Part shown: positions 38,371 through 54,460 of the stretch, piece by piece
Layout of the letters: every line of letters begins with the position of its first letter
Numbering within the stretch: position 1 is the first letter of the stretch
NCBI RefSeq assembly: GCF_000379025.1
Contig: NZ_KB900619.1
Coordinates: forward strand, 75,207-139,206
DNA from: Orenia marismortui DSM 5156
Lineage (GTDB): Bacteria > Bacillota > Halanaerobiia > Halobacteroidales > Halobacteroidaceae
Length of the DNA: 64,000 nucleotides
Reading direction: 5' to 3'
The notes under the pieces: model-generated
The model's input: the letters and a program-made list of their open reading frames with translations, nothing else
The model's database searches: none
Told to the model about the DNA's origin: nothing
Position numbers and translations under genes: made by a program

Positions 38371-38395
38371 AAAAAGCACCAAAAGGTGCTTTTTT
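38371..38395 (-). terminator. Terminator of regulator A
   Basis: AAAAAGCACC, an AAAA loop and GGTGCTTTTT form a perfect stem, overlapping the TAA stop of regulator A. On the minus strand the stem ends in TTTTTATTTTCC. Confidence 0.85.
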
Positions 38396-41300
38396 AAATG
38401 ATAATTGAATGATAATAATTTTTTATATTACTATTAGGACTAATATTTAAATCTTCTTCTAAAACTTTTTTGCAAACTTGATAGGTCTTAATAGCAAATT
38501 CTCTTCTATTAATCTGATCATAACTCTTCATCTTATATAAATAAGCCCGTTCAAAATATTTATCAATCTTCAAAATTCTATTAGCTAAATTAATATTAGC
38601 CTTATATTCTTGATTATCATAATAGTAAGCCAATACTTCATCAGCCACTTCTACAAACAAATTCTCTAAGCGTTCTCTCTCCCTTATAATAAAATCACTA
38701 TAAAGATCACCAGCTAAGAAATCTCCTTGATAAAGGTCAACTGCCTTCTTATAATAATTCATCCTAATTATCTCATCTCTAGCCTTATTACCTCTTTCTA
38801 TTAATTCTTCAAAAGTTTTAACATCATAAAAATAGGAGAATTGATTAGATAGCCCATAAGATAATCCATTTTTAACAATAAAATAACTATCTGTCCTAGA
38901 CTTTCTATCTGGCTCTAAAATCTTATTTAAACTATTCAAACTAACATTAAAGCTATGAACTGCAGATTTTTGATCTTTATCTGGCCATAATATATCACAA
39001 ATTCTATCTCTAGGAATCATCTTATCGTAGTTTACTAGAAATAATTTAAATAATTCCTTAGCATTCTTCCGCTTCCATTCACTTGAATCAACTTTATATT
39101 TATCTCGATATAATTCTAATCTTCCAAAAGCCTTAATCTTCAATGAATATCCTGGAGCCCGATCAAAGGAAGCTAAATCAATCTTCTTCAATATTTTATT
39201 AATATATTCACTTTCAATATTATTTTTCTTCGCTTCAATTAGCATCGGAATGATTCTATTTGGATCTCTAAAGCCAAGCATAGAAGACTTAATTAGTAAT
39301 TCCTCACAACCCCCTTCTTTAATGATTTCTAAGCCTTGCTGTAAATATTTATAACAAGATTCTTTATTTTCATCTTTATAATTCACTAATGCCAACAACA
39401 ATAAGGTTGAAGCCAAATACATTCTATTATTTAAACTCATTAACTTATCTTTAGATTCCTCTAAATAATAAGAGCAACTTTCTCTATCACCTTTAAAGTA
39501 ACAGCTAGTAGCTATTACCCTTGAAATCATACTACTTAAAAATTTATAGTTTCTCTCCTCTAATAACTTTAAATCTTTTAGACAACTCTCTATACTCTGC
39601 CCACCTTCTCCATAAAAAGAATCAGCAAGAAGTGATTTAGCCCTTAATTCAAACTCATGCCAGAAAAGATTGAGTTTTTTGCTATCTAATACAGCTTTGA
39701 AGTTAAGATAACTATTCTTCAAATCTTCATATCCTTCTAGCCCTAAGAACTCATAAACATTGCTCAGATAATAGTTGAAAAATTCTTCTATCAGCTCACC
39801 TCGATTTGAGTTTTTATTCCAAATATACTCTAAAGCCTCATACTTCTCTCCCCTGATTAGTCTAATCACTACTGGCAAAGTGATAGTATAAAATAATCTA
39901 CAATCAAAAAAGCTCTTTCCTTCTAGCTCTAGACTGTCAATTAATTCTTGGCACTGTCTGAAGTTCCCCTTAATAAGACAGATATATGCCTTTAACTCCT
40001 TATAGAGTTCTTCTTCAACTTGACTATCTGCTAGTCTCTTCTCTGCTTCTTTTAAGTTAGAATCTATAATATTCTCTATAATCTCTAAATATAAGAGCTC
40101 TCTTCTTTCCTCCACAGAAAAAGATTCTTTAAATTTATTTAGCTTATCTATATATACTAGCAAATTCCTAGACATTAAAAAGGAATATATCTTAGCAATT
40201 TTAAATAAGACCTTGATCATAAGTTCATCCTCTTCATTCACTAACATATCTTCAGCCTGCAAATAGATTCTAAGTGCATTATCAATTTCATCCTTCTTAA
40301 GATAAAGGTCTCCTTGGTAGATGAGCAATCTAGGATTTGAAGCTATCTTATCCTCTGGAAGATGATCTAAACACTTCTCTAATAGATTAAATTCTTCATT
40401 TGCTAACCATCTATCGGAATTTTTATTGATTAAATTTATTATTTCTTTATCTTCTTCTGTATCTAAAACATGATAGGCTAAATCCTCATAAAAGTTTAGA
40501 TCTTCATATACCTCTCTTACTTTCTGTTGTGAAAATTTCATATCATAGAGGTTATTGGCCTCTTCTCTTAAAAATGATTGAAAGATATTATGATATCGAA
40601 ATATATTCTTTTCTTCTCTATAGATAAATACTCCTCGATTGATCAGTTCTTGAATTATCTCTTGACTATTATCTATCTCTAATAATTTATTACATATATC
40701 AGTATTAAGGTTTCTTAAAATTGATGTCTTTAAAAGAAATTCTTTTAAAGTTGGATCACCTGATAATTTGTCCAAAACCTCATACTTTAAATAAGTAAAT
40801 ATCACCTTAAAACTGGCTTTATCATTCAAAATTTTCTCTAACCCAACTCCCTCTTTAATCCTCCTAGCAATCAAATCAACAACTAAAATCCAACCTTCAC
40901 TAATCTCTTTGATCTGTCTAATCTCACTTTTTGAAAGGCACAACTTATACTCTGATAAAAATAACTCTTCAATCTGATAACTATCTAGTATAAATTCTCT
41001 ATCTTCAATTTTCATTGCCTTAGCCATTAATTCCCAATAATCAAACTTTGGATAATTAATATAGCCTTGATTGATAATTATTAAATGAAAATTCTTTTCT
41101 AACATATCTATAAATAATTCGAAATAGCAGCAAAAATCATCACTTAAAGAAATTAACTCAAAATTATCAACTATTAAAAATATATCTTTTTTAAGTTCTG
41201 CTAATACTTTAATTAAAGATTCTATAAACTCTTCTCCCTGAATTTCACCAGCTTTAAATTGAGTTATGATCTTTTTAGCTCTTTCAAATTTATCCGCATA

Positions 41301-41555
41301 ATCAAACTCTAAAAATGATACTATATTTTCCCAAAATTCAAAAATACCCGTTTTACTCTTTAAACTATACCAATAACTACTCTTAGGGTAATTCTTGTGG
41401 AAAAATTTAGCTACCTGCTTTGTCTTTCCATAACCCGACTTACCCTCAATTAGGGTTAATGAATATCTTGGAATCTTCTTTAAATTTTCTATTATCTTCT
41501 TATTTTCCCAATGATTATTTCCTCCTGGCAAATAAAGCTCTGCTCTGTTTATCAT
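38394..41555 (-). CDS. STAND-type ATPase / BTAD transcriptional regulator A
   Basis: 1,053 residues. An N-terminal P-loop ATPase of MalT/STAND type (Walker A GKSGYGKT at 38-45, Walker B FLIVDNFEL near 118) is followed by a winged-helix-like arm (about 280-350) and a long helical, TPR-like region (about 400-820). Then come an OmpR-like winged helix (FGRLELYR..KRKNAKELFKLFLVN, LWPDKD, LNSLNKILEP) and a C-terminal BTAD helical domain (EELIERG, YQGDFL, ERAYLYKMKSYDQ). DNA binding is thus near the C-terminus, unlike AfsR-type SARPs. One of four paralogues here; ligand and targets are unknown. Start set at the ATG after GGGGAGGG. Confidence 0.85.
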   Translation of the reverse strand: MINRAELYLPGGNNHWENKKIIENLKKIPRYSLTLIEGKSGYGKTKQVAKFFHKNYPKSSYWYSLKSKTGIFEFWENIVSFLEFDYADKFERAKKIITQFKAGEIQGEEFIESLIKVLAELKKDIFLIVDNFELISLSDDFCCYFELFIDMLEKNFHLIIINQGYINYPKFDYWELMAKAMKIEDREFILDSYQIEELFLSEYKLCLSKSEIRQIKEISEGWILVVDLIARRIKEGVGLEKILNDKASFKVIFTYLKYEVLDKLSGDPTLKEFLLKTSILRNLNTDICNKLLEIDNSQEIIQELINRGVFIYREEKNIFRYHNIFQSFLREEANNLYDMKFSQQKVREVYEDLNFYEDLAYHVLDTEEDKEIINLINKNSDRWLANEEFNLLEKCLDHLPEDKIASNPRLLIYQGDLYLKKDEIDNALRIYLQAEDMLVNEEDELMIKVLFKIAKIYSFLMSRNLLVYIDKLNKFKESFSVEERRELLYLEIIENIIDSNLKEAEKRLADSQVEEELYKELKAYICLIKGNFRQCQELIDSLELEGKSFFDCRLFYTITLPVVIRLIRGEKYEALEYIWNKNSNRGELIEEFFNYYLSNVYEFLGLEGYEDLKNSYLNFKAVLDSKKLNLFWHEFELRAKSLLADSFYGEGGQSIESCLKDLKLLEERNYKFLSSMISRVIATSCYFKGDRESCSYYLEESKDKLMSLNNRMYLASTLLLLALVNYKDENKESCYKYLQQGLEIIKEGGCEELLIKSSMLGFRDPNRIIPMLIEAKKNNIESEYINKILKKIDLASFDRAPGYSLKIKAFGRLELYRDKYKVDSSEWKRKNAKELFKLFLVNYDKMIPRDRICDILWPDKDQKSAVHSFNVSLNSLNKILEPDRKSRTDSYFIVKNGLSYGLSNQFSYFYDVKTFEELIERGNKARDEIIRMNYYKKAVDLYQGDFLAGDLYSDFIIRERERLENLFVEVADEVLAYYYDNQEYKANINLANRILKIDKYFERAYLYKMKSYDQINRREFAIKTYQVCKKVLEEDLNISPNSNIKNYYHSIII

Positions 41556-41763
41556 ATTAACCCTCCCCACTACTTTCTCTAACAATCAATCCTAATAAAA
41601 ACACAATTTACATATATAACCATCAAATTTCTACATTTATCTACTTTTATTATAACAAAGATTGCTTTCATAACTATTACATATCACTTACAAAAGCTTT
41701 ACAAAATTGAATTTAAAGAGAACTGTCATAAAGAAACATAAGTCGACAAAATACTCCTAACAC

Positions 41764-41790
41764 AAAAAAACCACCCTTTCAGGTGGTTTA
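41764..41790 (-). terminator. Terminator of the GGDEF-EAL gene
   Basis: AAACCACC and GGTGGTTT form the stem with a CTTTCA loop, followed by a T run on the minus strand (TTTTTTTGTG). It lies 11 bases past the gene's stop. Confidence 0.8.
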
Positions 41791-41800
41791 ATAAACATAT

Positions 41801-43878
41801 TTAATTCAAAAAATATTCTTCTACCTCTTTAGCACTTACTGGTTTAGAAAAGAGATATCCTTGACCTATATTACAACTATTATTTCTCAAAAAAGATAAT
41901 TGTTCTCTAGTTTCAATACCTTCAGCTATGATACTAAAGTTTAAATTATTCCCCATATTAATAATAGTCTTAGCTAAAACCTGCTTTTTAGCTTTAGTTA
42001 CTAGACCATCAATAAAGGACTTATCGATCTTGAGACTATCAATCGGTAGATCACTTATAATATTCAATGATGAATATCCTGTTCCAAAATCATCAATTGA
42101 AACAGTTACACCTATCTCTTTTAATGCAATTAATTTATGATTTAGGTCACTTACATTTCTCATTATATTCTCTGTTATCTCTATCTCCAAAAATTCCGGT
42201 TTTAGAGATGTTTCTTCAATTACTTTTTTTACACTATCAACAAAATCATCTTCTTGCAACTGTCTAATCGATACATTAACAGCTACACGAATAGGATCAA
42301 AACCAGCATCTTGCCATCTTTTATTCTGTTCACAAACTGTACGCAGTATCCATTTACCCATAGGAACAATTAATCCTGTCTCTTCTGCTATTGGTATAAA
42401 CTCAACTGGAGATATCATTCCTTTCCTAGGGTGCTTCCATCTAATCAAGGCTTCAATTCCAGTTAATTTCTCTGTACTTAAATCAAATTGGGGCTGATAG
42501 ATCATAAATAGTTCATCATTTCTGATGGCTTTTTTCAGATCATTCTCCAACTCTATCTTATTATAATATCTCTTCTCTATTTCACTATTATAAAACTTAT
42601 AATTTCCTCCTACTCTCTTTTTAGCTTCATACATGGCTATATCAGCATGTTTTAGTAAATCTTCTAAATCCTCTCCCCCTTCTGGATAGCTACTAATCCC
42701 TATACTAGCAGAAGTAGCTATGCTATTTCCTCCTACCATAAAGGGATAAGAAATCTTGTCAATTATTCTTTGCGATACTTTTTTTATTATAGCTTTAGAT
42801 TCTTCTTCCATTAGAATAATAAATTCATCTCCACCTAATCGTGCTACAATATCCTTCTTTCTAACTGAACTCTTTAACCGTTTTGCTACTTGCTCAAGAA
42901 AGATATCGCCTGTATTATGGCCTAGAGTATCATTGATTAATTTAAATCTATCTAAATCAATAAATAAAATATTAAAGTTCTTTATCTCAGCTTTAGATAT
43001 CAACTCTTCAATATAATTATAGATATAATATCTATTGGGCAATCCAGTTAACTGGTCATGATTTGCAATATACTCAATCTTATCCTTCATATCTTTCTCT
43101 TCTGTAATATCCTTGGCTATACCGTAAACACCCACTAGCTCATTATTAGCTTTCATAGGAAAGACCTTCACAGCTAAATCTAAACTTTTATTCTCCTTAT
43201 TTAAAATACGACATTCAAAACTTTGTGCTTCTCCATTAAGGGCTTTCTGATAATAGCCCCATACTTCCTTACATTCCTCTTCAAAGACTAAATCTTCAAA
43301 ACTCATCTTTAATAGTTCTTCTTGATTATATCCAGTTAACTTTTGTGAAGCAGAGTTAACTGAGGTAAATTACCATCAGAATCAGAGGCAAATACTGAAT
43401 CAGGATTATATTCAAATAAAGATTGAAAACGTTCTTTATTCTCTTTAATACTATTCTCTATCTCTTTTCTTTCTGTAATATCTTTAAATACTGTAATAAT
43501 CACTTCATCACCTGAAATATTAGTAATTTGACAAGCTAACTCTACTAATGCCTTATCACCATCAGCTCTATCAATCTCTATCTCGTGCCAATCTAAATCC
43601 CCATCATCATATACCTCATTTATCCTATCTATTAGCACTTGATTATAATCTGCTGATATAAAATCAAATACCGACCTACAAATTATATCTTCTAAAGATT
43701 TGACTCCCAAAGTATCTAGAGCTAATTTATTAGCATATAGAATTTTCTTCTTTTGGTGAATTAAGATTGGTTGAGGAATTGATGCTATTAAATCTCTGTA
43801 AGTCATATTTTCCTGCCTTAAAAAAAGGATACATTCTCTCATATTACTTATACTTCTAAACTTCTTATCCTTCTTCAT
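41801..43878 (-). pseudogene. PAS-PAS-GGDEF-EAL gene broken by a one-base frameshift
   Basis: Makes or degrades c-di-GMP when intact. The 5' part encodes two PAS domains (start ATG at 43878 after GAGGTGG). At about 43367-43371 the frame changes: DSDGNLPQ... ends at a stop near 43336, while the +1 frame reads FTSVNSASQKLTGYNQEELLKMSFEDL and continues without break. Adding one T to the TTT run restores 692 residues. The 3' part has PAS, GGDEF (ARLGGDEF), EAL (GIEALIRW) and DDFGTGYS all intact. A restart could give a GGDEF-EAL protein of 501 residues. Could be phase variation in a T-run, a fixed mutation or a sequencing error. Confidence 0.85.
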
Positions 43879-43990
43879 CAGATCCCACCTCTTTCTCGTG
43901 TGCAAATATTATAATTTTAATCTATATTAATACCATAAAATTTCTGATATTTAAATTCAACCTTTAACTCAACCATTGTTTTCAATGTGA

Positions 43991-44033
43991 TTTTAAACCA
44001 TATTGACCAGATTATTCTAAACCATATTGTCAA
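43991..44033. repeat. Two direct repeats upstream of the GGDEF-EAL gene
   Basis: TTTTAAACCATATTGACCA and TTCTAAACCATATTGTCAA are spaced 24 bases apart, about 115-155 bases upstream of the GGDEF-EAL start codon. The spacing near two helical turns suggests an activator or repressor operator. No factor is known. Confidence 0.4.
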
Positions 44034-44040
44034 AATAAAA

Positions 44041-44070
44041 ATAAGGCCCAGGAAAAATCCTAGACCTTAT
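44041..44070 (-). terminator. Strong terminator not assigned to a gene
   Basis: On the minus strand ATAAGGTCTAGGA and TCCTGGGCCTTAT form a 13-bp stem (two G-U pairs) with a TTTT loop, followed by TTTTATTTTG. The next upstream gene has its own terminator at 44713, so this one ends a separate transcript. Confidence 0.8.
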
Positions 44071-44442
44071 CTTCCATAAATACTAGTTCATAGATTATTA
44101 GATGTAAACTAAATTTGATAATCTTATTTTAATTCAAATCTTTTTAAATATGCTGATTGATAAGTTTTCCTAAATATTCCTACACACATACTTAAGCAAT
44201 TTCTCCTATAATGAAAAATCTTCATTAACTTCAATTTTTGTTAAATCTCTACTTTAATAATAAGTAAATATTTTGATGCTTAAAATATCAAATATTAAAT
44301 TTTATCCCTGTTAAATCTATTAAAATATTCCTTCTATAGCTCTTTTTATAATCACTAGTACTAAAAATTTTATTAGTAGGGAGGTTTAGTCAACTAATCT
44401 AATATAAATTATAGATTGGAAGACTATTTAAATTGGAATCCA

Positions 44443-44461
44443 AACGATAATAGTTATCGTT
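44443..44461 (-). promoter_or_regulatory. Fur-like operator
   Basis: A perfect 8-3-8 palindrome, AACGATAA TAG TTATCGTT. Compared with the 7-1-7 Fur consensus it matches 11 of 14 positions. It begins just downstream of the predicted transcription start, where a repressor would block polymerase. Confidence 0.6.
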
Positions 44462-44470
44462 CTTGATTAA

Positions 44471-44499
44471 ATTATACTACTACTTTCCATCATTGTCAA
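44471..44499 (-). promoter_or_regulatory. Consensus sigma-A promoter
   Basis: On the minus strand TTGACA and TATAAT are separated by exactly 17 bases, a perfect consensus match and the best promoter in the window. It drives no visible gene, only the predicted small transcript. Confidence 0.8.
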
Positions 44500-44712
44500 G
44501 ATTATTTATGTATTTCTTGTCGAATTTTGAGTTTTTCTTCTTTGCTTATTTTTTTTAGTGTCAACTTTTACTCCTAAAGATCATATATTAGCTAAAGATT
44601 AGTAGACTTCATTAAATAATGATCATGGATAAGTAAGGAGTAAATAAGTTAACTAGTTATTCCTTACTGCAACTTTACACCCAAATTAAAACTTTTTATT
44701 TACAAAATAACA

Positions 44713-44736
44713 AAAAGAGCCTATTCAGGCTCTTTT
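44713..44736 (-). terminator. Terminator of regulator B
   Basis: AAAAGAGCC and GGCTCTTTT form a perfect stem with a six-base loop, overlapping the stop codon of regulator B and followed by TTGTTATTTTG on the minus strand. Confidence 0.8.
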
Positions 44737-47700
44737 AGAGTGTTATCTCTTGATAGTATCCTTCTATCTCTTGATTAGGTGATATATTCAATTCCTCTGC
44801 TAAAATTTCTTTACATCTTTGATAAGTCTTAATTGCATAGCTACGAAGATTAAGTTGATTATAAGACTTCATCTTATATAAATAAGCAGCTTCATAGTAC
44901 TTATCCAACTCTAAAGCTCTATCTGCTAATTCTATAGATTCATTATAATCACCATTCTGATAATAATAAGCAATGAGATCATAACTTATCTCCAAATACA
45001 TCTGTTGTAACTTCTTTCTCTCTTTAATTATCTCTTGATCATATAAATCTCCAACAATAAAGTCCCCTTCATAAATATCTAGAGCCTGTTGATAGTATTT
45101 TATCTTTATTAACTTACTATCAGCTTGCTTACCTCTCTCAATTAATTCCCCAAATATGTCTACATCAGATCGATAAGTAAAATTATTAACCAAGCCATAA
45201 TTATCTCTATCTTTTATAATAAAGTAAGGTTTCTCTCCAGCTTCTCTATTTGGATTTAAAACCTTATTTAAACAAGATAGATTAACTGAAAAACTCCGAT
45301 AAGCATCTGCTTGCTCAAGATCTGGATATAATATCTGACAGATCTGATCCTTAGAAAGAAAATCACCACGATGAACCAAAAAGAGTTTGAATAAATCTTT
45401 AGATTTTTTACGAACCCATTTACTCTCATCAATTAACTGATTTCCTCTATAGATCTTAAGCCGTCCAAAGGCTTTAATCTTTAATGAATATCCTGGGGCC
45501 TGATCTAGCTCACTTAGATCAACTTGATCTAGGAGTCGGTTGATATAATCAACCTCCACACCTTGCTTTCTGGCTTCAAGTAATAAGGGAATAAACTCAT
45601 TTGCATCCTTTGGCAGTAAATAATTTGAGCTTATAAATAAAAAGTCGTACTTTTCTTCTTTAGCAATGCTTAAGCTCTTATTAATATAATTAATAAAATT
45701 ATTATTTTCCCCTTTCGCATAATAAACTGCTGAAATTAATAATAATGAATGAGCTACTAGAAAGTCATTATCAGCAACATCAAAATTTTCAATAGAAACT
45801 TTAAATAACTTTAAAGATCTTTCTAAATCCCTTTCATAATAATATTTCATTGCAATATCTTGATTGAATAATCCTATATAAAGCTTATCTTTTCTCTTTT
45901 CAGCAAATTCTAAACCTAACTCACTATACTCTAGTACCTTCTCTAAGCTACCATAAGAGACTTCACAAGAGACTATAGTTTTTAATAGTTCCACTCTATA
46001 CCAAGATGCTTGATAAGGACAACTATCAATCCTACTTAATTTATTCAAATAGAATTCTTTTAATTCTTCTCTTGGCTCAATATAGAAGAACTCAGATACC
46101 TGTGCCAAATAATACTCAGCAAATAATTTAATTATATAATTGTCCTTTTCTAGCTGCTTTAAAATATATTCTTGAACTTCATAAAAATTCCCTAAAAAGA
46201 AATTTAGAAAAATAGGTATTAATAAAGTAGTATAAGTATATAGCTCTTCAATAGGTTTATCAATCTGATTTAACACTTTTTTAGCACTTCTAAATTTACC
46301 CTTAGTAAATAATAAATTAGCTAATAATTCATTATAATACTTACTACCTTCCAACTTAGCAATTAACTCTGTTGCCTTCTTATTATCTCCCCTAATAATA
46401 TTTGAGATTACTCTTAAATAAATCAACTTTTCTCCTTCAAATTCTGATAGTTGACCTTCAAATTCCATTAACTCTTCTACATAATCTAAAAGCTTATTGG
46501 AATTAAAAAAAGCATAAACTTTAGCAACTTTAAAAAGAGCTCTCTTTAAATGCTTTCTATCTCCACTTCTGCGAAATAAATCTTCTGCTTGCTGATATTT
46601 AGCTAAAGATTGATATGGATCATTTTTTGACAAGTATAAATTACCTTGATAGAGGTAGAGAATAGGGTTATCATCAAAATCTTCTTCATCCAAATAAGTA
46701 AAAACTTCTCTTAAGACTCTATATTCTTTGTAGATTAATTTTTCTTCATTTTTTGCCATAATATCAAATAATTTATCTTTATGATTAGCTTCACAGCAAT
46801 AATAAATCGCTTCTTTAATCATCCCTAATTCTAAATAAGTATCTATTAAATCACTATAATCAAATTCACTATAAAGCTGTTTAAATTTATCCTTTAAGAA
46901 ATCTCTAAACAAACTATAATAACGATAGCTTTCTTGATCTATCTTCTTTACTAGCCCAAACTTATCATTGATAAAATTTATAATCTCTTGACTATTATCT
47001 ATCTTCAAGAAATGATTACAAATCTCAATATCCAATTCTCTTAACAGAGAGGTCCTCAATAAAAACTCAATTAAACTTTTATCATCTAATTTTCCAAGTA
47101 CTTGATAACTAAAATAAGTATCTAATACTTCAAAGTTACTATAGTCATTAAGAAATTCTTCTATATTATCTCCATCATAAGCCTTCGCAATAATATCAAC
47201 TGCTAACAGCCAGCCTTCACTCTTATTATATATCTGCTCTAGCTCAGATTTTGAGAAATCTAAATTATACTCTAACAATAATAACTCCTTTAACTCTCCT
47301 TGATCTAGAATAAATTCATCCTCTTTAATAAACTGCGCTCGCCCTATAACATTCCATCTATCTAATTGTGGAAAACAGAGGTCTTCTCTTGAGATCAGTA
47401 CTAAATGAAAAGAACTAGGCATTAAATTTATAAAATAACTCAAACTATTAATTATCTCTTGATTATCAGCAATTATTTCAAAGTTATCAATTACTAATAA
47501 TAGATCATTGTTAAAGTTATTAAAGATTACTTCTACTAAATCATTGATTATATCCCTAATATTTAATTGACCTTGCTCACAGTCATTTATAATCTCTTCC
47601 ATATCTCCTTCTAAATTATCATTATAAAAAATAGTTGCTTTAATGATCAATTTCCAGAAGAGCTTAGTATTTAATTCAATGTCATCACTCAAATTAAGCC

Positions 47701-47890
47701 AAATAAATTCCTTACTAAAATTATTGGTTATAAAATTAGACAAACTACTTGACTTCCCAGTTCCAATTCCTCCTTTAATAATCGTCAAAGGATAACTCTT
47801 GATCTTAGTATATTTATTATGTAAATCTTTATCATACCATTTATTAAAGTGATAATTAGGCCTTATAAAATACTTATTTGTATTATTCAT
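44735..47890 (-). CDS. STAND-type ATPase / BTAD transcriptional regulator B
   Basis: 1,051 residues, paralogue of A, C and D with the same domain order. Walker A is GGIGTGKS at 40-47 and Walker B LLLVIDNFEI near 128, both intact. The helical middle region is the most diverged part, suggesting a different ligand or partner. The C-terminal winged helix (FGRLKIYRGNQLIDESKWVRKKSKDLFKLFLV) and BTAD (YEGDFIVGDLY, EAAYLYKMKSYNQLN) are preserved. Start set at MNNTN after GGAGGG. A terminator ends it, and regulator C upstream has its own, so it is probably transcribed alone. Confidence 0.85.
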   Translation of the reverse strand: MNNTNKYFIRPNYHFNKWYDKDLHNKYTKIKSYPLTIIKGGIGTGKSSSLSNFITNNFSKEFIWLNLSDDIELNTKLFWKLIIKATIFYNDNLEGDMEEIINDCEQGQLNIRDIINDLVEVIFNNFNNDLLLVIDNFEIIADNQEIINSLSYFINLMPSSFHLVLISREDLCFPQLDRWNVIGRAQFIKEDEFILDQGELKELLLLEYNLDFSKSELEQIYNKSEGWLLAVDIIAKAYDGDNIEEFLNDYSNFEVLDTYFSYQVLGKLDDKSLIEFLLRTSLLRELDIEICNHFLKIDNSQEIINFINDKFGLVKKIDQESYRYYSLFRDFLKDKFKQLYSEFDYSDLIDTYLELGMIKEAIYYCCEANHKDKLFDIMAKNEEKLIYKEYRVLREVFTYLDEEDFDDNPILYLYQGNLYLSKNDPYQSLAKYQQAEDLFRRSGDRKHLKRALFKVAKVYAFFNSNKLLDYVEELMEFEGQLSEFEGEKLIYLRVISNIIRGDNKKATELIAKLEGSKYYNELLANLLFTKGKFRSAKKVLNQIDKPIEELYTYTTLLIPIFLNFFLGNFYEVQEYILKQLEKDNYIIKLFAEYYLAQVSEFFYIEPREELKEFYLNKLSRIDSCPYQASWYRVELLKTIVSCEVSYGSLEKVLEYSELGLEFAEKRKDKLYIGLFNQDIAMKYYYERDLERSLKLFKVSIENFDVADNDFLVAHSLLLISAVYYAKGENNNFINYINKSLSIAKEEKYDFLFISSNYLLPKDANEFIPLLLEARKQGVEVDYINRLLDQVDLSELDQAPGYSLKIKAFGRLKIYRGNQLIDESKWVRKKSKDLFKLFLVHRGDFLSKDQICQILYPDLEQADAYRSFSVNLSCLNKVLNPNREAGEKPYFIIKDRDNYGLVNNFTYRSDVDIFGELIERGKQADSKLIKIKYYQQALDIYEGDFIVGDLYDQEIIKERKKLQQMYLEISYDLIAYYYQNGDYNESIELADRALELDKYYEAAYLYKMKSYNQLNLRSYAIKTYQRCKEILAEELNISPNQEIEGYYQEITL

Positions 47891-48065
47891 TACTCCCTCC
47901 AATAGTATAAAACAATAATACTGCTCCTTTATTAATAGTTCTAAAAATCATTATATTTCTAATTAATATTATCATAGCTATAGAAAATTTTATAATAATC
48001 TCATTTATATAATAATATATCTTACTTACATAATAATTACAAAAATAATTTTATAGCTACAAATA

Positions 48066-48094: not shown

Positions 48095-51000
48095 TTACTT
48101 TATTAATTTATAATATTCTTCTATTTCAGAATTTGGTTTGATACTTAGGCAATTTAACAGATTATCTTTACATTCTTCATAAACTTCAATCGCTAAACTA
48201 ATTAATCCTAACTGCTTATATGATTTCATCTTATATAAGTAAGCACTCTCATAAAGGGAATTTACCGCTAAAATCTTATTAGCAATAGTAATACTAATAC
48301 CATAGTTTTCTCTTTTATACTCATATTCCATAACCTGATGGCATATCTCTAGATATAGTCTCTTCAACCTCTTTCTCTCTTTAATTATTTTAAAATTATC
48401 CTGATCCTCATTTAGAAAATCATCTTGATATAGATTTATAGCTTGTTTGTAATAGTTTATTCTTATTACTTCCGCTTTAGATTCTTTTGCTTTATCAATT
48501 AGTTCTTCAAAAAAAGAAACATCATATAAAGTAGAAAAAGTATTAGAAATTCCATATAAGTTGCCATCTTTTCTAATAAAGAAAGGTAATTCTCCTCTCT
48601 TTCGATTTGGTTCTAATACTTTATTCAAACTACTTAATGTTACTGAAAAATTAAGCTTAACCTTATCTTCACCCTTGTCAGGCCATAATTCAGTACAGAT
48701 TAATTCTCTAGATAATAGCTTACCATAATTAAGCAAGAATATCTTAAGCAGCTCTTTGGCCTTCTTCCTCTTCCACTCTTGCTCCTTAATTTCTTCATTA
48801 CCACGATAAACCTTAAATCCTCCTAAAGCCTCTATCTTAATTACATATCCCGGTGCATGATCTATTTCTCCTATATTCATCTTAGAGAATAATTTATCAA
48901 TATACTCCACCTCTATTCCTGCTGCTTTTGCCTTTAATAGTATTGGCAGAAATAGATTAGGGTCTGCAGTTAACGTAAAATTTTTCTGTAAGAATAGAAA
49001 GTCAAACTTCTTTCTTCTACATATTTTGAATAATTCTCTTGCTGTATCTTTAAACAGATCATTATTGCCTTTCTTATAATTAATCAATGATAACCAAGCT
49101 AAAGGCCTACATAAGAACAAATTGTTATTTAATTCAGAGAACTCATCTCTGATATCTATCAATAGCCTTTCAGCTTTATCTATATTGCCATTGAAATAAT
49201 AAGAAATAGCTGTGTAATACTTAAATATACTGATAAAAAATAGATCATTTCGTTTCCTAGCATGTTCTAAACCTTCCTTTGAATATGAGATAGCTAATTT
49301 AATATCTCCATTAAATAAATCCCAAACTATTAAATACATCAGTGAATGAAATCTATGAAAAGAATTTCCCACAAATAAATTTTCATTATTTTCTTTTAAT
49401 AATTCCATATACATTTTTTTTAGATCTATTTTAATAAAAGGAGCTAATAGAAAGGACTGTATCAAATAGAAATCTCCAAATTTATCAACAAAAATATTAG
49501 CTTTTATAAAACCATTTAATATATAATTTTGTAACTTGTACATATTACCTTTAAGTATATTAATTAATGCTGAGAAAACAATCGTATTATAGAAATGATA
49601 ATCAATAATTTTTCTTCTATTATCCTGATCTAAGTATAATTCTATTTTATGCAAATCACCTCTAATAAAAGATATATGGGCCTTTATCTCTTGAAGAACA
49701 TTACTCTCTACATCAATATCTAGCGCTTCTTCCTCTACTTCTATTAGATCACTTGTAATTACTTTAATTAAAATATTAAACTTTTTATACTGTTGTCGAT
49801 CAGCTTGAGAAAAGAAAGTCTTATACTTATCTAAATCCTTCATATAATCTATAGATTTATTAGAATTAGTAAATATCAATAACTTGATCATCTTCTGCAA
49901 AGCCTTAATTATACCTTCTATATCTTGACCTTCTCTAAAAATATCTAGTCCATATTGATAATTGCACATTGCTTTCTTTATATTTAAATTATTGAAATTC
50001 AAGCAACCCTTGACCAAAAACAAATATGGATTCTTCAATAAGGTATCCTTAGATACCTTATTCTTAAATAAATTTCTTAAAAGATCACTTTCCTTCTCTA
50101 TTAAATAATCAGAATTGTCAACTATTAAATCAAAAACCTCTTGTTTATTAAAGTTAGAGGTGTGATAAAACATTCCTTGAATATCATCAAACTCAGCATA
50201 AGCATTTCTAGCTTCTTTTTCTAAAGCTTCATAATCATAAAGATCTTTGGCCATTGATTTTAAAAAGCTCCTTAATATATTATTATATTTATATCTCCCT
50301 TCAGAAATTTCTTTAACAAAGCTACATTCAGAATTTAATCTTTCTAAAAGTTCCTGGCTATTACTTATGCCTAGCATTAAATTACATATTTTTAAGTCTA
50401 ACTCATCTAAGATCGATGTCTTAATTAAAAATTCTACTAACAAAGGATTATCCGCTGCAAAGTCTCCAGATAACTCTTCTTCAAAATAATCAAATATAAC
50501 CTTAAATACATCTCTACCTTCAATAATTAAATCTAAATTCTTCTTAGTTTGGAGATTCTTAGCCAATAAATCTACTGCCAATAGCCACCCTTCAGTCTTT
50601 AGATAAAACTCCTTTAAATTTGATGGAGAAAGTGAAAGATTATACTCCCTTATCAATAACTTATCTAACTGTTTCTGATCTAAAGCGAAATTCTCTTCAT
50701 CAATTACTTGTACCTTATCTTTAATAATTCCAATTGATACTTTAGGCCAATTAATAACCTTTCTAGTAATAAACACTAAATGAATATTATCAGGAATCCA
50801 TTCCACAAATAAATTCAATGATTCTATAATAACTTTATTATTTAGCAAATCTAAATAATCAAAAACAATAAAGATATCATCAGCTAAACAATCAACAAAA
50901 GCATTACTTAACTTTTGGATAAATACTTTAATATCTAAATTATTTTTAGATAACTCAGCTAATAGTTTCTTCTTTCTCTTAATAAAGTTATTATCTACTT

Positions 51001-51259
51001 TGATAGCATTAATAAAATCTATCCAAAAAGAATGTAAATTAGTTTTATTATCTATCAAATACCAGCTTACTCTCTCTATACCTTTTTTTTGAAAGTAAGT
51101 TAATAGACACTTCCTCTTTCCAGAACCGACTTTAGCTTGAATAACTGTAAGAGGATAGTCTTCAATCCCATTATATTTATTATAGATATCACTATTATGC
51201 CATTCACTAAAAGTAAATTTTGATAACTCTGATTTAAAATCAATGCTTAGCCCATTCAC
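48095..51259 (-). CDS. STAND-type regulator C with degenerate ATP-binding motifs
   Basis: 1,054 residues, paralogue of A, B and D. The P-loop reads AKVGSGKR at 42-49: the first Gly is Ala and the final Thr/Ser that binds Mg-ATP is Arg. The Walker B is FIVFDYLDLL, with Tyr replacing the usual Asn after Asp134. ATP hydrolysis, and perhaps binding, is therefore likely lost. Helical region, winged helix (GGFKVYRGNEEIKEQEWKRKKAKELLKIFLLN) and BTAD are intact, so it should still bind DNA, perhaps as a constitutive or heteromeric partner. It starts with GTG 39 bases after regulator D and is probably in its operon. Confidence 0.82.
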   Translation of the reverse strand: MNGLSIDFKSELSKFTFSEWHNSDIYNKYNGIEDYPLTVIQAKVGSGKRKCLLTYFQKKGIERVSWYLIDNKTNLHSFWIDFINAIKVDNNFIKRKKKLLAELSKNNLDIKVFIQKLSNAFVDCLADDIFIVFDYLDLLNNKVIIESLNLFVEWIPDNIHLVFITRKVINWPKVSIGIIKDKVQVIDEENFALDQKQLDKLLIREYNLSLSPSNLKEFYLKTEGWLLAVDLLAKNLQTKKNLDLIIEGRDVFKVIFDYFEEELSGDFAADNPLLVEFLIKTSILDELDLKICNLMLGISNSQELLERLNSECSFVKEISEGRYKYNNILRSFLKSMAKDLYDYEALEKEARNAYAEFDDIQGMFYHTSNFNKQEVFDLIVDNSDYLIEKESDLLRNLFKNKVSKDTLLKNPYLFLVKGCLNFNNLNIKKAMCNYQYGLDIFREGQDIEGIIKALQKMIKLLIFTNSNKSIDYMKDLDKYKTFFSQADRQQYKKFNILIKVITSDLIEVEEEALDIDVESNVLQEIKAHISFIRGDLHKIELYLDQDNRRKIIDYHFYNTIVFSALINILKGNMYKLQNYILNGFIKANIFVDKFGDFYLIQSFLLAPFIKIDLKKMYMELLKENNENLFVGNSFHRFHSLMYLIVWDLFNGDIKLAISYSKEGLEHARKRNDLFFISIFKYYTAISYYFNGNIDKAERLLIDIRDEFSELNNNLFLCRPLAWLSLINYKKGNNDLFKDTARELFKICRRKKFDFLFLQKNFTLTADPNLFLPILLKAKAAGIEVEYIDKLFSKMNIGEIDHAPGYVIKIEALGGFKVYRGNEEIKEQEWKRKKAKELLKIFLLNYGKLLSRELICTELWPDKGEDKVKLNFSVTLSSLNKVLEPNRKRGELPFFIRKDGNLYGISNTFSTLYDVSFFEELIDKAKESKAEVIRINYYKQAINLYQDDFLNEDQDNFKIIKERKRLKRLYLEICHQVMEYEYKRENYGISITIANKILAVNSLYESAYLYKMKSYKQLGLISLAIEVYEECKDNLLNCLSIKPNSEIEEYYKLIK

Positions 51260-51298: not shown

Positions 51299-54200
51299 TT
51301 AATTTGTAATTAATTTGTAATAATCCTCTATTCTTTTATCTATCGTAATATTTAATTCATTGCTTATAATATCTTTATATTCTCTATAAGTTTCAATTGC
51401 AAAATTCCTTAAACCCAATTTATAGTAAGACTTAATCTTATGAAAATATGCATCTTCATAATAATTATCAATATCTAAGATCTTATCTGCAATTTTAATA
51501 GTCTTTCTATACTTATCCCCTTTACAATAGTAAAGCAATAACTCACTACAGATATTCAAAAATAATATCTTTAACCTATCTCTTTCTTGATTTACGAAAT
51601 CAAGGTGCAAACAATCCCTAATATAATCTCCTTTATAAAGGTCAATAGCCCTTTGATAATAACTAATCCTAACTATCTCCTCTTTGCAAGATCTTCCCCT
51701 GCTTATAAATTCTTCAAATAATTCAACATCATAACTATACCTAAAACTATTATTTAATCCATAATAACTACCATTACTTTCAATAAAATAACTATCTTGA
51801 TCCGATTCTCTCTCTGGTTCTAAGACCTTATTTAGTGAATTTAAGGTAACATAAAAGATATTTTCAGCATCTTCTTGAGCCTTATTAGGCCAGAGTAAAG
51901 AAGAGATCTGATTACGATGGATCATCGAGTTTGAATTAACTAACAATAATTCAAACAATTCCTTGGCTTTTTTTCTTTTCCATTGACTTTCTTTAACCTC
52001 TTCTCTTCCACGATATAATTTTAAACCACCAAAGGATTCTATCTTTAATCCATAGCCAGGAGATTCTTCTATACCTTTGGCATCAATCTTTTCTAATAAT
52101 TGATTAATATAATCTACCTCTAAATTAAACTTTCTTCCTGCTAATAATAGTGGAAGTAATAAGTTAGGATCTCTAACCCCAAATAAAGTAGCTCTCAAAA
52201 AGATGTTATCATAGCCTTCTTCTTTTGCAAGCTTAAGAGCTTTTTGAAAAACATCTTTAAAAACTTTAATATTATCACTTTTATACTCTGATAAAGCTGA
52301 CCATAATAAAGCATAGAAGAGATGAATTTTACTATTTATAATTTTAGCAACATTAATACTCTTCTTAAAAAATATCTTTGCTTTCTTAAAATCATTCTTG
52401 AAATATAAATTAACTCCCATACATCTCAAAAATGTACACTTCCCTAAATTATTATTATTATCAAAACTGTCCTTTAAACCTTTAGCAGCATATTTTAAAC
52501 CATCTTCTATAATACCATAAAATGCTTCCCATAAACTTAATTTATATAATAACTGAAATCTAAACCAAGGAATACCGAAAGATAATTTATCTAATTTTTC
52601 TATTAAAGATAAATACTTATTCTTTACTATATTTAAATCATAAAAATCTAAAAATTCACTAATATTTAATAGAAAATAATCTTTTAAACTCTTAATAACT
52701 AAATTATCTGATCTTATACCCTCTAAAATATACTTTTCTGCTTTTAATATCTCTCCTGTTGATAAAAAATAAAATATAGGAACAAAATAAGTATATAAGA
52801 AAACACAGCTAAAATCATCTATTTCTAAGTCTAGAAAAGCAGTGTCTAAAGCGATAAATTTTCCTTTAATTGCATTGAGATGTATCTTAGCTTCAAAGTG
52901 AAAACTATGATCATGATCTAATGATTTTAATACTTCCTTTGCTTTGTTGACCTTGCCATTATAAATATAATAACCAGCCTTATAAGAAAGAAATTTCTTC
53001 TCCTGAGACTGGCTAAAGTGATCTTTATAATTATCTAGTTTATCTAAATATCCTTTTAACTTATTTGATGTAAAGAATATATAATATTTAGCCAGCCTAA
53101 ATATTATTTCAATTCTTTCTTCAAGCTCAACAGAGTTATTTTCTGCTTTTTGATAACTTTTTAAAGCAAGCTTAATTCTTCCTTTATTAAATAATAAATC
53201 ACCTTTATAAATGTATAGGATAGGATACTTATTAAAAATATCTTCAGATAAAAATTCTAAAACTTTCTCTAGAAAATCTAATTTTTGCTTAAAGAATTCT
53301 TCTTTAACTTGCAATAACTCAACAAGGTCCTCTTCTCGCTCTAATCTCATACTATGATAGATTAATTTCTCTAAATTATCTTCCTTAAGATAAATATCCT
53401 TAGCCTTAATATGTAGATCTTGCTCGTTATAACTATTAACAAAGTAATTTTCTAAAAAAGAATGAAAAATATTATGATATCGATATTCTCCTTGCTCTAT
53501 TCTTTCAATAAAACAACCCTTATCAATTAACTCTTCTAATAATTGTTGACTATTATTTATTTCTAAAAGTTGATTGCATATTCTAACATCCAAGTCTTTT
53601 AAAACCCTAGTCTTACTTAAAAAATCATTGTAGACAGCTTCTTCCTCTAAATCATCTACTAAGTCATATTGAAAATAATCAAAAATTAATTTTGAGGTGT
53701 TCTTATTAAAGCAGTCTTCAAAATCCTCACCTTTCTTAAGCCTTCTTGCTACTAAATCTATTGCTGCTATCCAACCTTCTGCCCACTTATTTAGCTTTTT
53801 TAGCTTATTGGCCGATAAAAGAAGATTATAGGTACTAGCCAAAAAATTCTCTACTTCTTGATTATTTAATAGAAAATCTTCTTCTTTAACCTCAAATAAC
53901 TTTCCAACTACCTTCCAATAACTCAATTTAGCTAAAGGAACCTTCTTTCTACTCACCACTACTAGATGAAAAGATGCTGGTAAAGCTTCTATAAATTTAC
54001 CTAATAATTTTAATATATTTTCATTTGCCGAAACTTTATCAAAATTATCAATCACAAAAATACTTTGATCAATAAATTCTTTATCAATCAAAGTATTTAA
54101 TAATTTAAGTAATCTATCTAAGCTAAGCTTTTCTTTGTTAAATTTTTGAATCAGATTATTTAGTTTCTCTCTTTGATGACTATTATTATATTTTAAGCAC

Positions 54201-54460
54201 TCTAAGATATTAAGACAAAAATTAATTTCATCTACATTATCTTCTTTAATACTATAATAATAAAGTTCTTGATCCCAATTCTTTTCTAAATAATCCAATA
54301 AAGTAGTTGTCTTTCCAGTACCTAATCTCCCTCTAATAATTGTAATTGGAAATTCTTTAATAAAGCTATACTTCAACCATAGTTTTTTATTCTTCCATAC
54401 CTTATTCTTAATCTTAGGTAATATATATTGTGACTTCAAAATTAATTTATTGTCTATCAA
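51299..54460 (-). CDS. STAND-type ATPase / BTAD transcriptional regulator D
   Basis: 1,053 residues, same architecture as A-C. Walker A GRLGTGKT at 44-51 and Walker B SIFVIDNFD near 137 are intact. C-terminal winged helix: FGGLKLYRGREEVKESQWKRKKAKELFELLLVN, then SLLWPNKAQ and LNSLNKVLEP. BTAD: YKGDYIRDCLHLDF and EDAYFHKIKSYYKLG. It starts with TTG after TAGGAGG. No terminator separates it from regulator C, so C and D form an operon. A PAS-XRE regulator gene lies 108 bases upstream. Confidence 0.85.
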   Translation of the reverse strand: MIDNKLILKSQYILPKIKNKVWKNKKLWLKYSFIKEFPITIIRGRLGTGKTTTLLDYLEKNWDQELYYYSIKEDNVDEINFCLNILECLKYNNSHQREKLNNLIQKFNKEKLSLDRLLKLLNTLIDKEFIDQSIFVIDNFDKVSANENILKLLGKFIEALPASFHLVVVSRKKVPLAKLSYWKVVGKLFEVKEEDFLLNNQEVENFLASTYNLLLSANKLKKLNKWAEGWIAAIDLVARRLKKGEDFEDCFNKNTSKLIFDYFQYDLVDDLEEEAVYNDFLSKTRVLKDLDVRICNQLLEINNSQQLLEELIDKGCFIERIEQGEYRYHNIFHSFLENYFVNSYNEQDLHIKAKDIYLKEDNLEKLIYHSMRLEREEDLVELLQVKEEFFKQKLDFLEKVLEFLSEDIFNKYPILYIYKGDLLFNKGRIKLALKSYQKAENNSVELEERIEIIFRLAKYYIFFTSNKLKGYLDKLDNYKDHFSQSQEKKFLSYKAGYYIYNGKVNKAKEVLKSLDHDHSFHFEAKIHLNAIKGKFIALDTAFLDLEIDDFSCVFLYTYFVPIFYFLSTGEILKAEKYILEGIRSDNLVIKSLKDYFLLNISEFLDFYDLNIVKNKYLSLIEKLDKLSFGIPWFRFQLLYKLSLWEAFYGIIEDGLKYAAKGLKDSFDNNNNLGKCTFLRCMGVNLYFKNDFKKAKIFFKKSINVAKIINSKIHLFYALLWSALSEYKSDNIKVFKDVFQKALKLAKEEGYDNIFLRATLFGVRDPNLLLPLLLAGRKFNLEVDYINQLLEKIDAKGIEESPGYGLKIESFGGLKLYRGREEVKESQWKRKKAKELFELLLVNSNSMIHRNQISSLLWPNKAQEDAENIFYVTLNSLNKVLEPERESDQDSYFIESNGSYYGLNNSFRYSYDVELFEEFISRGRSCKEEIVRISYYQRAIDLYKGDYIRDCLHLDFVNQERDRLKILFLNICSELLLYYCKGDKYRKTIKIADKILDIDNYYEDAYFHKIKSYYKLGLRNFAIETYREYKDIISNELNITIDKRIEDYYKLITN

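Follow-up and report, generated by a model that had tools for sequence, protein, structure and literature searches.

The question raised by this locus is what a consensus promoter with a Fur-like box at its start site might be driving, when the stretch up to the next terminator holds no convincing reading frame. The locus lies in the window, i.e. the whole 64,000-nt stretch of Orenia marismortui DSM 5156 DNA analysed here, and a preliminary description had proposed an iron-sparing small RNA, a small peptide gene or the ruin of an iron uptake gene. Of these three, a small regulatory RNA fits best, and the form of it that we prefer, with a rough probability of 0.45 judged from the sequence, is a lineage-specific noncoding RNA that is repressed by a Fur-family protein and acts on ribosome-binding sites. 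The argument draws on the following features:

44713..44736, minus strand: terminator of the upstream BTAD-regulator gene (terminator scan)
44494..44499, minus strand: -35 hexamer TTGACA (sequence reading)
44471..44476, minus strand: -10 hexamer TATAAT, following the -35 hexamer after a 17-nt spacer (sequence reading)
44036..44464, minus strand: inferred ORF-less transcript of about 420-425 nt (promoter-to-terminator reading)
44443..44461, minus strand: predicted Fur-family operator AACGATAACTATTATCGTT, an inverted repeat (8-3-8) that spans about +3 to +21
44379..44385, minus strand: ACCUCCC, complementary to Shine-Dalgarno sequences and predicted to be unpaired
44124..44234, minus strand: longest ORF, 36 codons from TTG or 33 from an internal ATG
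44041..44070, minus strand: intrinsic terminator, a 13-bp stem that includes two G-U pairs and is capped by a UUUU loop, then a T-rich tract
41801-43905, minus strand: PAS-GGDEF-EAL gene, 3' of the terminator and on the same strand

The TTGACA-17-TATAAT promoter was confirmed on the minus strand, where it matches the consensus at 12 of 12 positions. Perfect promoters of this form occur 86 times genome-wide compared with 4 times in a reversed control, hence a chance match was rejected and the promoter of the locus is very likely real. The transcription unit is closed on both sides, as the upstream BTAD-regulator gene has a terminator-like site of its own (44736-44713), and the 13-bp terminator that had been placed some 400 bases on is indeed present, about 420 nt past the start (44070-44041), with a predicted energy of -17.9 to -23.9 kcal/mol; a simple terminator scan did not list this stem. 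The expected transcript has a G+C content of 23%, with about 370 nt between the inverted repeat and the terminator stem, and a moderate fold z-score of -2.5, which is probably driven in part by the two end hairpins. Outside the unit, an inverted repeat with 15-nt arms (87%) lies at 44632-44668, between the terminator of the upstream gene and the promoter, and two 23-nt direct repeats (83% alike) occupy 43990-44036, between the terminator and the PAS gene.

The earlier statement that no ORF exceeds 33 codons holds for ATG starts, but the longest frame reaches 36 codons if a TTG start is allowed. Its product is basic and not conserved, a 21-codon version has an AGGAG 13 nt 5' of its ATG, and a ribosome-binding site at normal spacing was found for none of the ORFs of the transcript, including the 33-codon start. 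Seventeen of the 86 perfect promoters, the one in the window included, are likewise not followed within 420 nt by an ORF of at least 25 codons that is preceded by a Shine-Dalgarno sequence. Known RNAs are present at 8 of the 16 others (RNase P RNA, four tRNA units, two T-boxes and one c-di-AMP riboswitch), so that an RNA can reasonably be expected as the product.

The operator had been described as a perfect 19-base palindrome, which it is not: AACGATAACTATTATCGTT consists of perfect 8-nt arms flanking a CTA centre without pairing, and would form a 5' hairpin as RNA. The count of 11 out of 14 matches (3 mismatches) to the Fur 7-1-7 consensus was reproduced. For the statistics, the sequence 3' of all 86 perfect promoters was used, that of the window included, and a Fur-like site was defined as a 15-mer with at most 3 mismatches within about 35 nt of the -10 hexamer. 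Such sites follow 10 of the 86 promoters, compared with 1.3 expected from shuffles, and near-perfect 19-nt inverted repeats follow 5 (1.6 expected); the two coincide only at the promoter of the window (1/86, 0.03 expected), a combination that arose in 5 of 20,000 shuffles of the window sequence. Genome-wide, neither the pattern AACGATAA-N3-TTATCGTT with at most 3 mismatches (54 compared with 99 in the control, per strand) nor the Fur consensus with at most 2 mismatches (243 compared with 220) is enriched, and the enrichment of Fur-like sites appears at start sites only. Operators placed a few nucleotides past the -10 hexamer are also found at genes for an FTR1 iron permease, a DUF2325 protein, a solute-binding protein, a pyruvate-formate-lyase-like (PFL-like) protein and an AhpC-family protein, and by sequence comparison the repeat in the window matches these Fur-family boxes of the source genome, which lie over the promoter or start site. 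On the enrichment counts at the 86 perfect promoters, the repeat at 44443..44461 is thus probably a Fur-family operator and the promoter very likely real; the enrichment of both elements and the recurrence of the box support the earlier picture, in which such an operator sits on a terminated transcript without an ORF.

Which member of the family would bind there is less clear-cut. The source genome encodes four Fur-family proteins above the Pfam cut-off, of which three have Fur and one has PerR as the best NCBIfam model, all below the curated equivalog cut-offs; one of the three Fur-model proteins was called Zur-like because a ZnuA-type gene adjoins it, and the best PDB match of the PerR protein is the peroxide operon regulator 2fe3. 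The four genes lie at C7:95706 (Fur), C1:368501 (Zur-like), C1:933925 (PerR) and C2:377612 (Fur-like). The boxes at the start sites of the FTR1 iron permease, DUF2325 and solute-binding-protein genes are of the TGATAAY type, and the window box fits their core GATAAY-N-RTTATC. Its AACGATAA arm is not found in these three boxes and is shared with PFL-like and peroxiredoxin promoters: the arm recurs at the PFL-like gene in the source genome (G000), G001 and G002, in the last of which the gene was identified by its N-terminus only, and G000 and G003 have it at AhpC-family genes. The two G000 sites are a selected sample, as they were found with the window's own pattern, while those in G001-G003 were found with a pattern omitting the AAC bases, which matches 22 places in 13 of 61 genomes compared with 6 in the reversed control. 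Because AACGATAA is otherwise seen at PFL-like and peroxiredoxin promoters, PerR and Fur paralogues deserve serious consideration, and the regulator of the window transcript may be one of these instead of Fur. The earlier label iron-sparing therefore keeps its Fur-family operator, but its reference to iron is not secured. A search of a paper on Clostridioides difficile perR for PerR-box terms found none.

The third element is the ACCUCCC at 44385-44379, the single C-rich motif of the transcript, which is predicted to be 74-98% unpaired. ACCUCC arises in 0.35% of shuffled transcripts of the same composition, and ACCTCC lies within the first 420 nt of 2 of the 86 perfect-promoter transcripts, namely that of the window and L142; in L142 it has the look of a ribosome-binding site for an antisense start. 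For the window, no start codon lies at Shine-Dalgarno spacing from the plus-strand GGGAGGT. The significance of the motif is post hoc, as the search for it was prompted by the C-rich regions of the small RNAs FsrA and IsrR, and what is present is one predicted instance of their trait, unpaired C-rich sequence with complementarity to ribosome-binding sites. When 251 start regions, a set in which iron loci are over-represented, were scanned for duplexes in an exploratory way, a bias towards iron proteins was not apparent and the top matches were mostly unannotated.

From these features we infer transcription, a repressor, a trans-acting function and targets in the form of the following model. 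A consensus sigma-70-type promoter would drive a noncoding RNA of ~420 nt, which a Fur-family repressor (Fur, PerR or a Fur-like paralogue) sitting over the start site would keep off. Upon loss of the metal-bound repressor, by iron starvation or, in the case of PerR, by peroxide, the RNA would be made and would end at its own terminator. The single-stranded ACCUCCC could then pair with ribosome-binding sites, so that translation of the target mRNAs would fall, as proposed for FsrA and IsrR. In this way, iron shortage or exposure to oxygen could lead the window RNA to shut down the translation of other genes.

Homology searches bear on this reading and on its rivals. Rfam covariance models, which had been named as a check, gave 0 matches in the window at the gathering score and chance-level ones at E up to 10, and a search of the region for tRNA and tmRNA returned none. 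With blastn at an E cut-off of 1, 60 of 61 genomes gave matches, most of them short and rich in AT, and no orthologue was found in 60 relatives, which counts against a small RNA. The best non-self match (54.5 bits, next best 44.6) falls in genome G006, on the 3' end of a gene for a P-type ATPase, and was rejected as a homologue; by a rough judgement it is AT-rich background, given the slow fall of match numbers with score and the lack of any tblastn match in G006 at the protein level. Phage records did not match the region, and plasmid records gave two weak 45-base matches, in Streptococcus only. A pattern for the anti-Shine-Dalgarno region, read as strings only, matches in 46 of 199 genomes with no evident orthologue among them; several of these matches in relatives look like ribosome-binding sites of antisense genes. 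A wider pattern scan of genome contigs gave 5 places, none of which has a clear -35 hexamer and terminator.

The neighbourhood offers two other explanations. The transcript might be the leader of the downstream PAS-GGDEF-EAL gene, starting at ~44464 and either stopping at the terminator or reading through to ~43870 under the control of a ligand or protein. The gene lies on the same strand and starts at about 43870, about 170 nt past the terminator, no sigma-70-type promoter with at least 9 of 12 matches is listed between the two on the minus strand, and riboswitch or T-box leaders account for 3 of the 16 comparable ORF-less perfect promoters. No riboswitch or T-box was matched by Rfam, however, and no competing antiterminator was found, the best upstream segment reaching -9.4 compared with -18.5 kcal/mol for the terminator stem, and in the assembly as given a frameshift near 43306-43370 breaks the gene itself into 189 and 501 codons; we hold a leader to be unlikely. 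The same frameshift would fit a locus in decay, in which promoter and operator are left over from a lost gene and the lineage-specific block 41600-44700 is going to ruin. The upstream regulator has an orthologue (58% identity) in G002, a genome of the same genus, and directly next to it, with 362 bases between, lies the likely orthologue of the 38394-41585 regulator (44%); the PAS-GGDEF-EAL gene and the transcript are both absent from this syntenic place, which also counts against a small RNA, and as the flanking regulators are adjacent there, the block is either lineage-specific or was lost in G002. Four paralogous regulators of ~1055 residues stand near-tandem in the window (38394-41585, 44735-47902, 48095-51259 and 51299-54460), and a BTAD domain is present in the two of them that were scanned.

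Decay is also favoured by the one AT-rich blastn match to the ATPase 3' end in G006, but this likeness does not extend to the protein level, where G006 gave no match, and the 12/12 promoter, the symmetric operator and the strong terminator are undecayed. A six-frame Pfam search of the transcript region returned nothing at E up to 5, and tblastn in 26 genomes, with part of one frame and the longest ORF as the only queries, gave background (best non-self E 0.004 and 0.016, respectively). The ruin of an iron uptake gene is thus unsupported, and the longer ORF or remnant in relatives that would have marked a decayed coding gene did not turn up by tblastn in these 26 genomes; we regard a decaying locus as rather improbable. 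Less probable again, and in our view quite doubtful, is a small-protein gene under Fur-family control, comparable to FbpABC, which would encode a basic peptide of 21-33 residues ending at 44124. The window ORF is basic, and a better-formed case exists elsewhere in the source genome: the unit L087:2068-1870 (minus strand, G000:C5 about 80167-79970) has a perfect promoter, a Fur-like box and a terminator, and at L087:1984-1907 (minus strand) a 26-residue ORF, MNANYTYFATALFLMNRRNNDNDNGK, with a good ribosome-binding site and no Pfam match, hence it is a candidate for a small protein under Fur-family control. For the window, in contrast, the AGGAG stands 13 nt before the only suitable ATG, the 33-codon start has none, and nothing similar rose above background in the 26 genomes, so that the small-peptide reading is left with a slight chance and neither a good ribosome-binding site nor a homologue. 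The preferred reading, a Fur-family-repressed regulatory RNA, rests on the ORF-less, terminated unit with its operator, but the iron-sparing role first attached to it is not secured.

A second ORF-less transcript, of about 100 nt, turned up in the operator pattern search and is relevant to this reading. L213 (G000:C1:32852 to about 32740, minus strand) has a TTGATA-17-TATAAT promoter, a perfect Fur box, TGATAATAATTATCA, at its start and the motif AUUUACCUCCUAAAA; a strong terminator lies some 100 nt past the start. In its ACCUCCU, the chance of ACCUCC is 0.21% and CCUCC is predicted to be 94-99% unpaired, and judged by these traits L213 looks much more like FsrA than the window feature does. 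Blastn of the two RNA regions gave only short background matches. L213 also has a PAS-GGDEF-EAL gene beside it, and as this gene is only 41% identical to the one beside the window RNA, the pair does not stem from a recent duplication. The L213 RNA was not found in G002 by the anti-Shine-Dalgarno pattern, and the only match to this pattern in G001 looks like an antisense ribosome-binding site. The sequence past the L213 terminator resembles what we take to be the 5' end of a group II intron; an Rfam search of L078 found nothing for this likeness. Another possible short RNA is L142 (G000:C2:139007-139140, plus strand), a unit without a credible ORF in which a perfect promoter is accompanied by an imperfect Fur-like site and followed, about 100 nt on, by a terminator-like hairpin. 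It is conceivable, if on the unlikely side, that two anti-Shine-Dalgarno RNAs without relation to each other operate in the source genome, each with a Fur-family repressor of its own: L213, short and responsive to iron, and the long window RNA with a PerR-type AACGATAA operator. The window RNA would then be a peroxide- or oxygen-induced translational repressor RNA, and a pair of candidates from another lineage, one of which may respond to peroxide or oxygen, would directly test how easily a start-site operator plus CCUCC gives new riboregulators.

Several known RNAs invite comparison. RyhB of enterobacteria is Fur-repressed, as the window RNA may be, but differs from the window RNA in sequence and size, and Rfam has no match in the window. 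SR7/S1136 of Bacillus subtilis and OxyS of Escherichia coli are alike in being regulatory RNAs tied to stress, with S1136 under PerR and OxyS under OxyR control. In the parts of the literature available to us, SR7 also encodes a small protein (PMC8464778), and titles and abstract openings on Fur-box sRNAs in Clostridium and small RNAs in Halanaerobium name no such RNA as that of the window. In the available portions of its descriptions, FsrA of B. subtilis is Fur-repressed and ORF-less, and its C-rich regions, which are single-stranded, are proposed to base-pair at ribosome-binding sites (PMC8464778; PMC12871923); it is 84 nt long, has two C-rich regions and FbpABC helpers, and the C-rich regions had no part in the pairing that was confirmed in vivo (PMC8464778). 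The window RNA shares with it the predicted Fur-family operator, the lack of an ORF and a C-rich motif predicted to be unpaired, but is about 420 nt long, with one C-rich motif and no Rfam match, and L213 is closer in size. IsrR of Staphylococcus aureus, again from part of its source, has Fur boxes at its promoter, unpaired C-rich regions and a terminator, and with 174 nt and three C-rich regions is conserved across a genus (PMC9410917). A start-site Fur-like box, a C-rich region predicted to be unpaired and a terminator recur in the window RNA, which in contrast is found in one genome only and has a single C-rich motif; its length of about 420 nt, compared with 84 and 174 nt, is long for an RNA of this kind and counts against the small-RNA reading. 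By Rfam, size and conservation the window RNA is a member of neither family, yet if our reading is right, it would by analogy work as FsrA and IsrR do.
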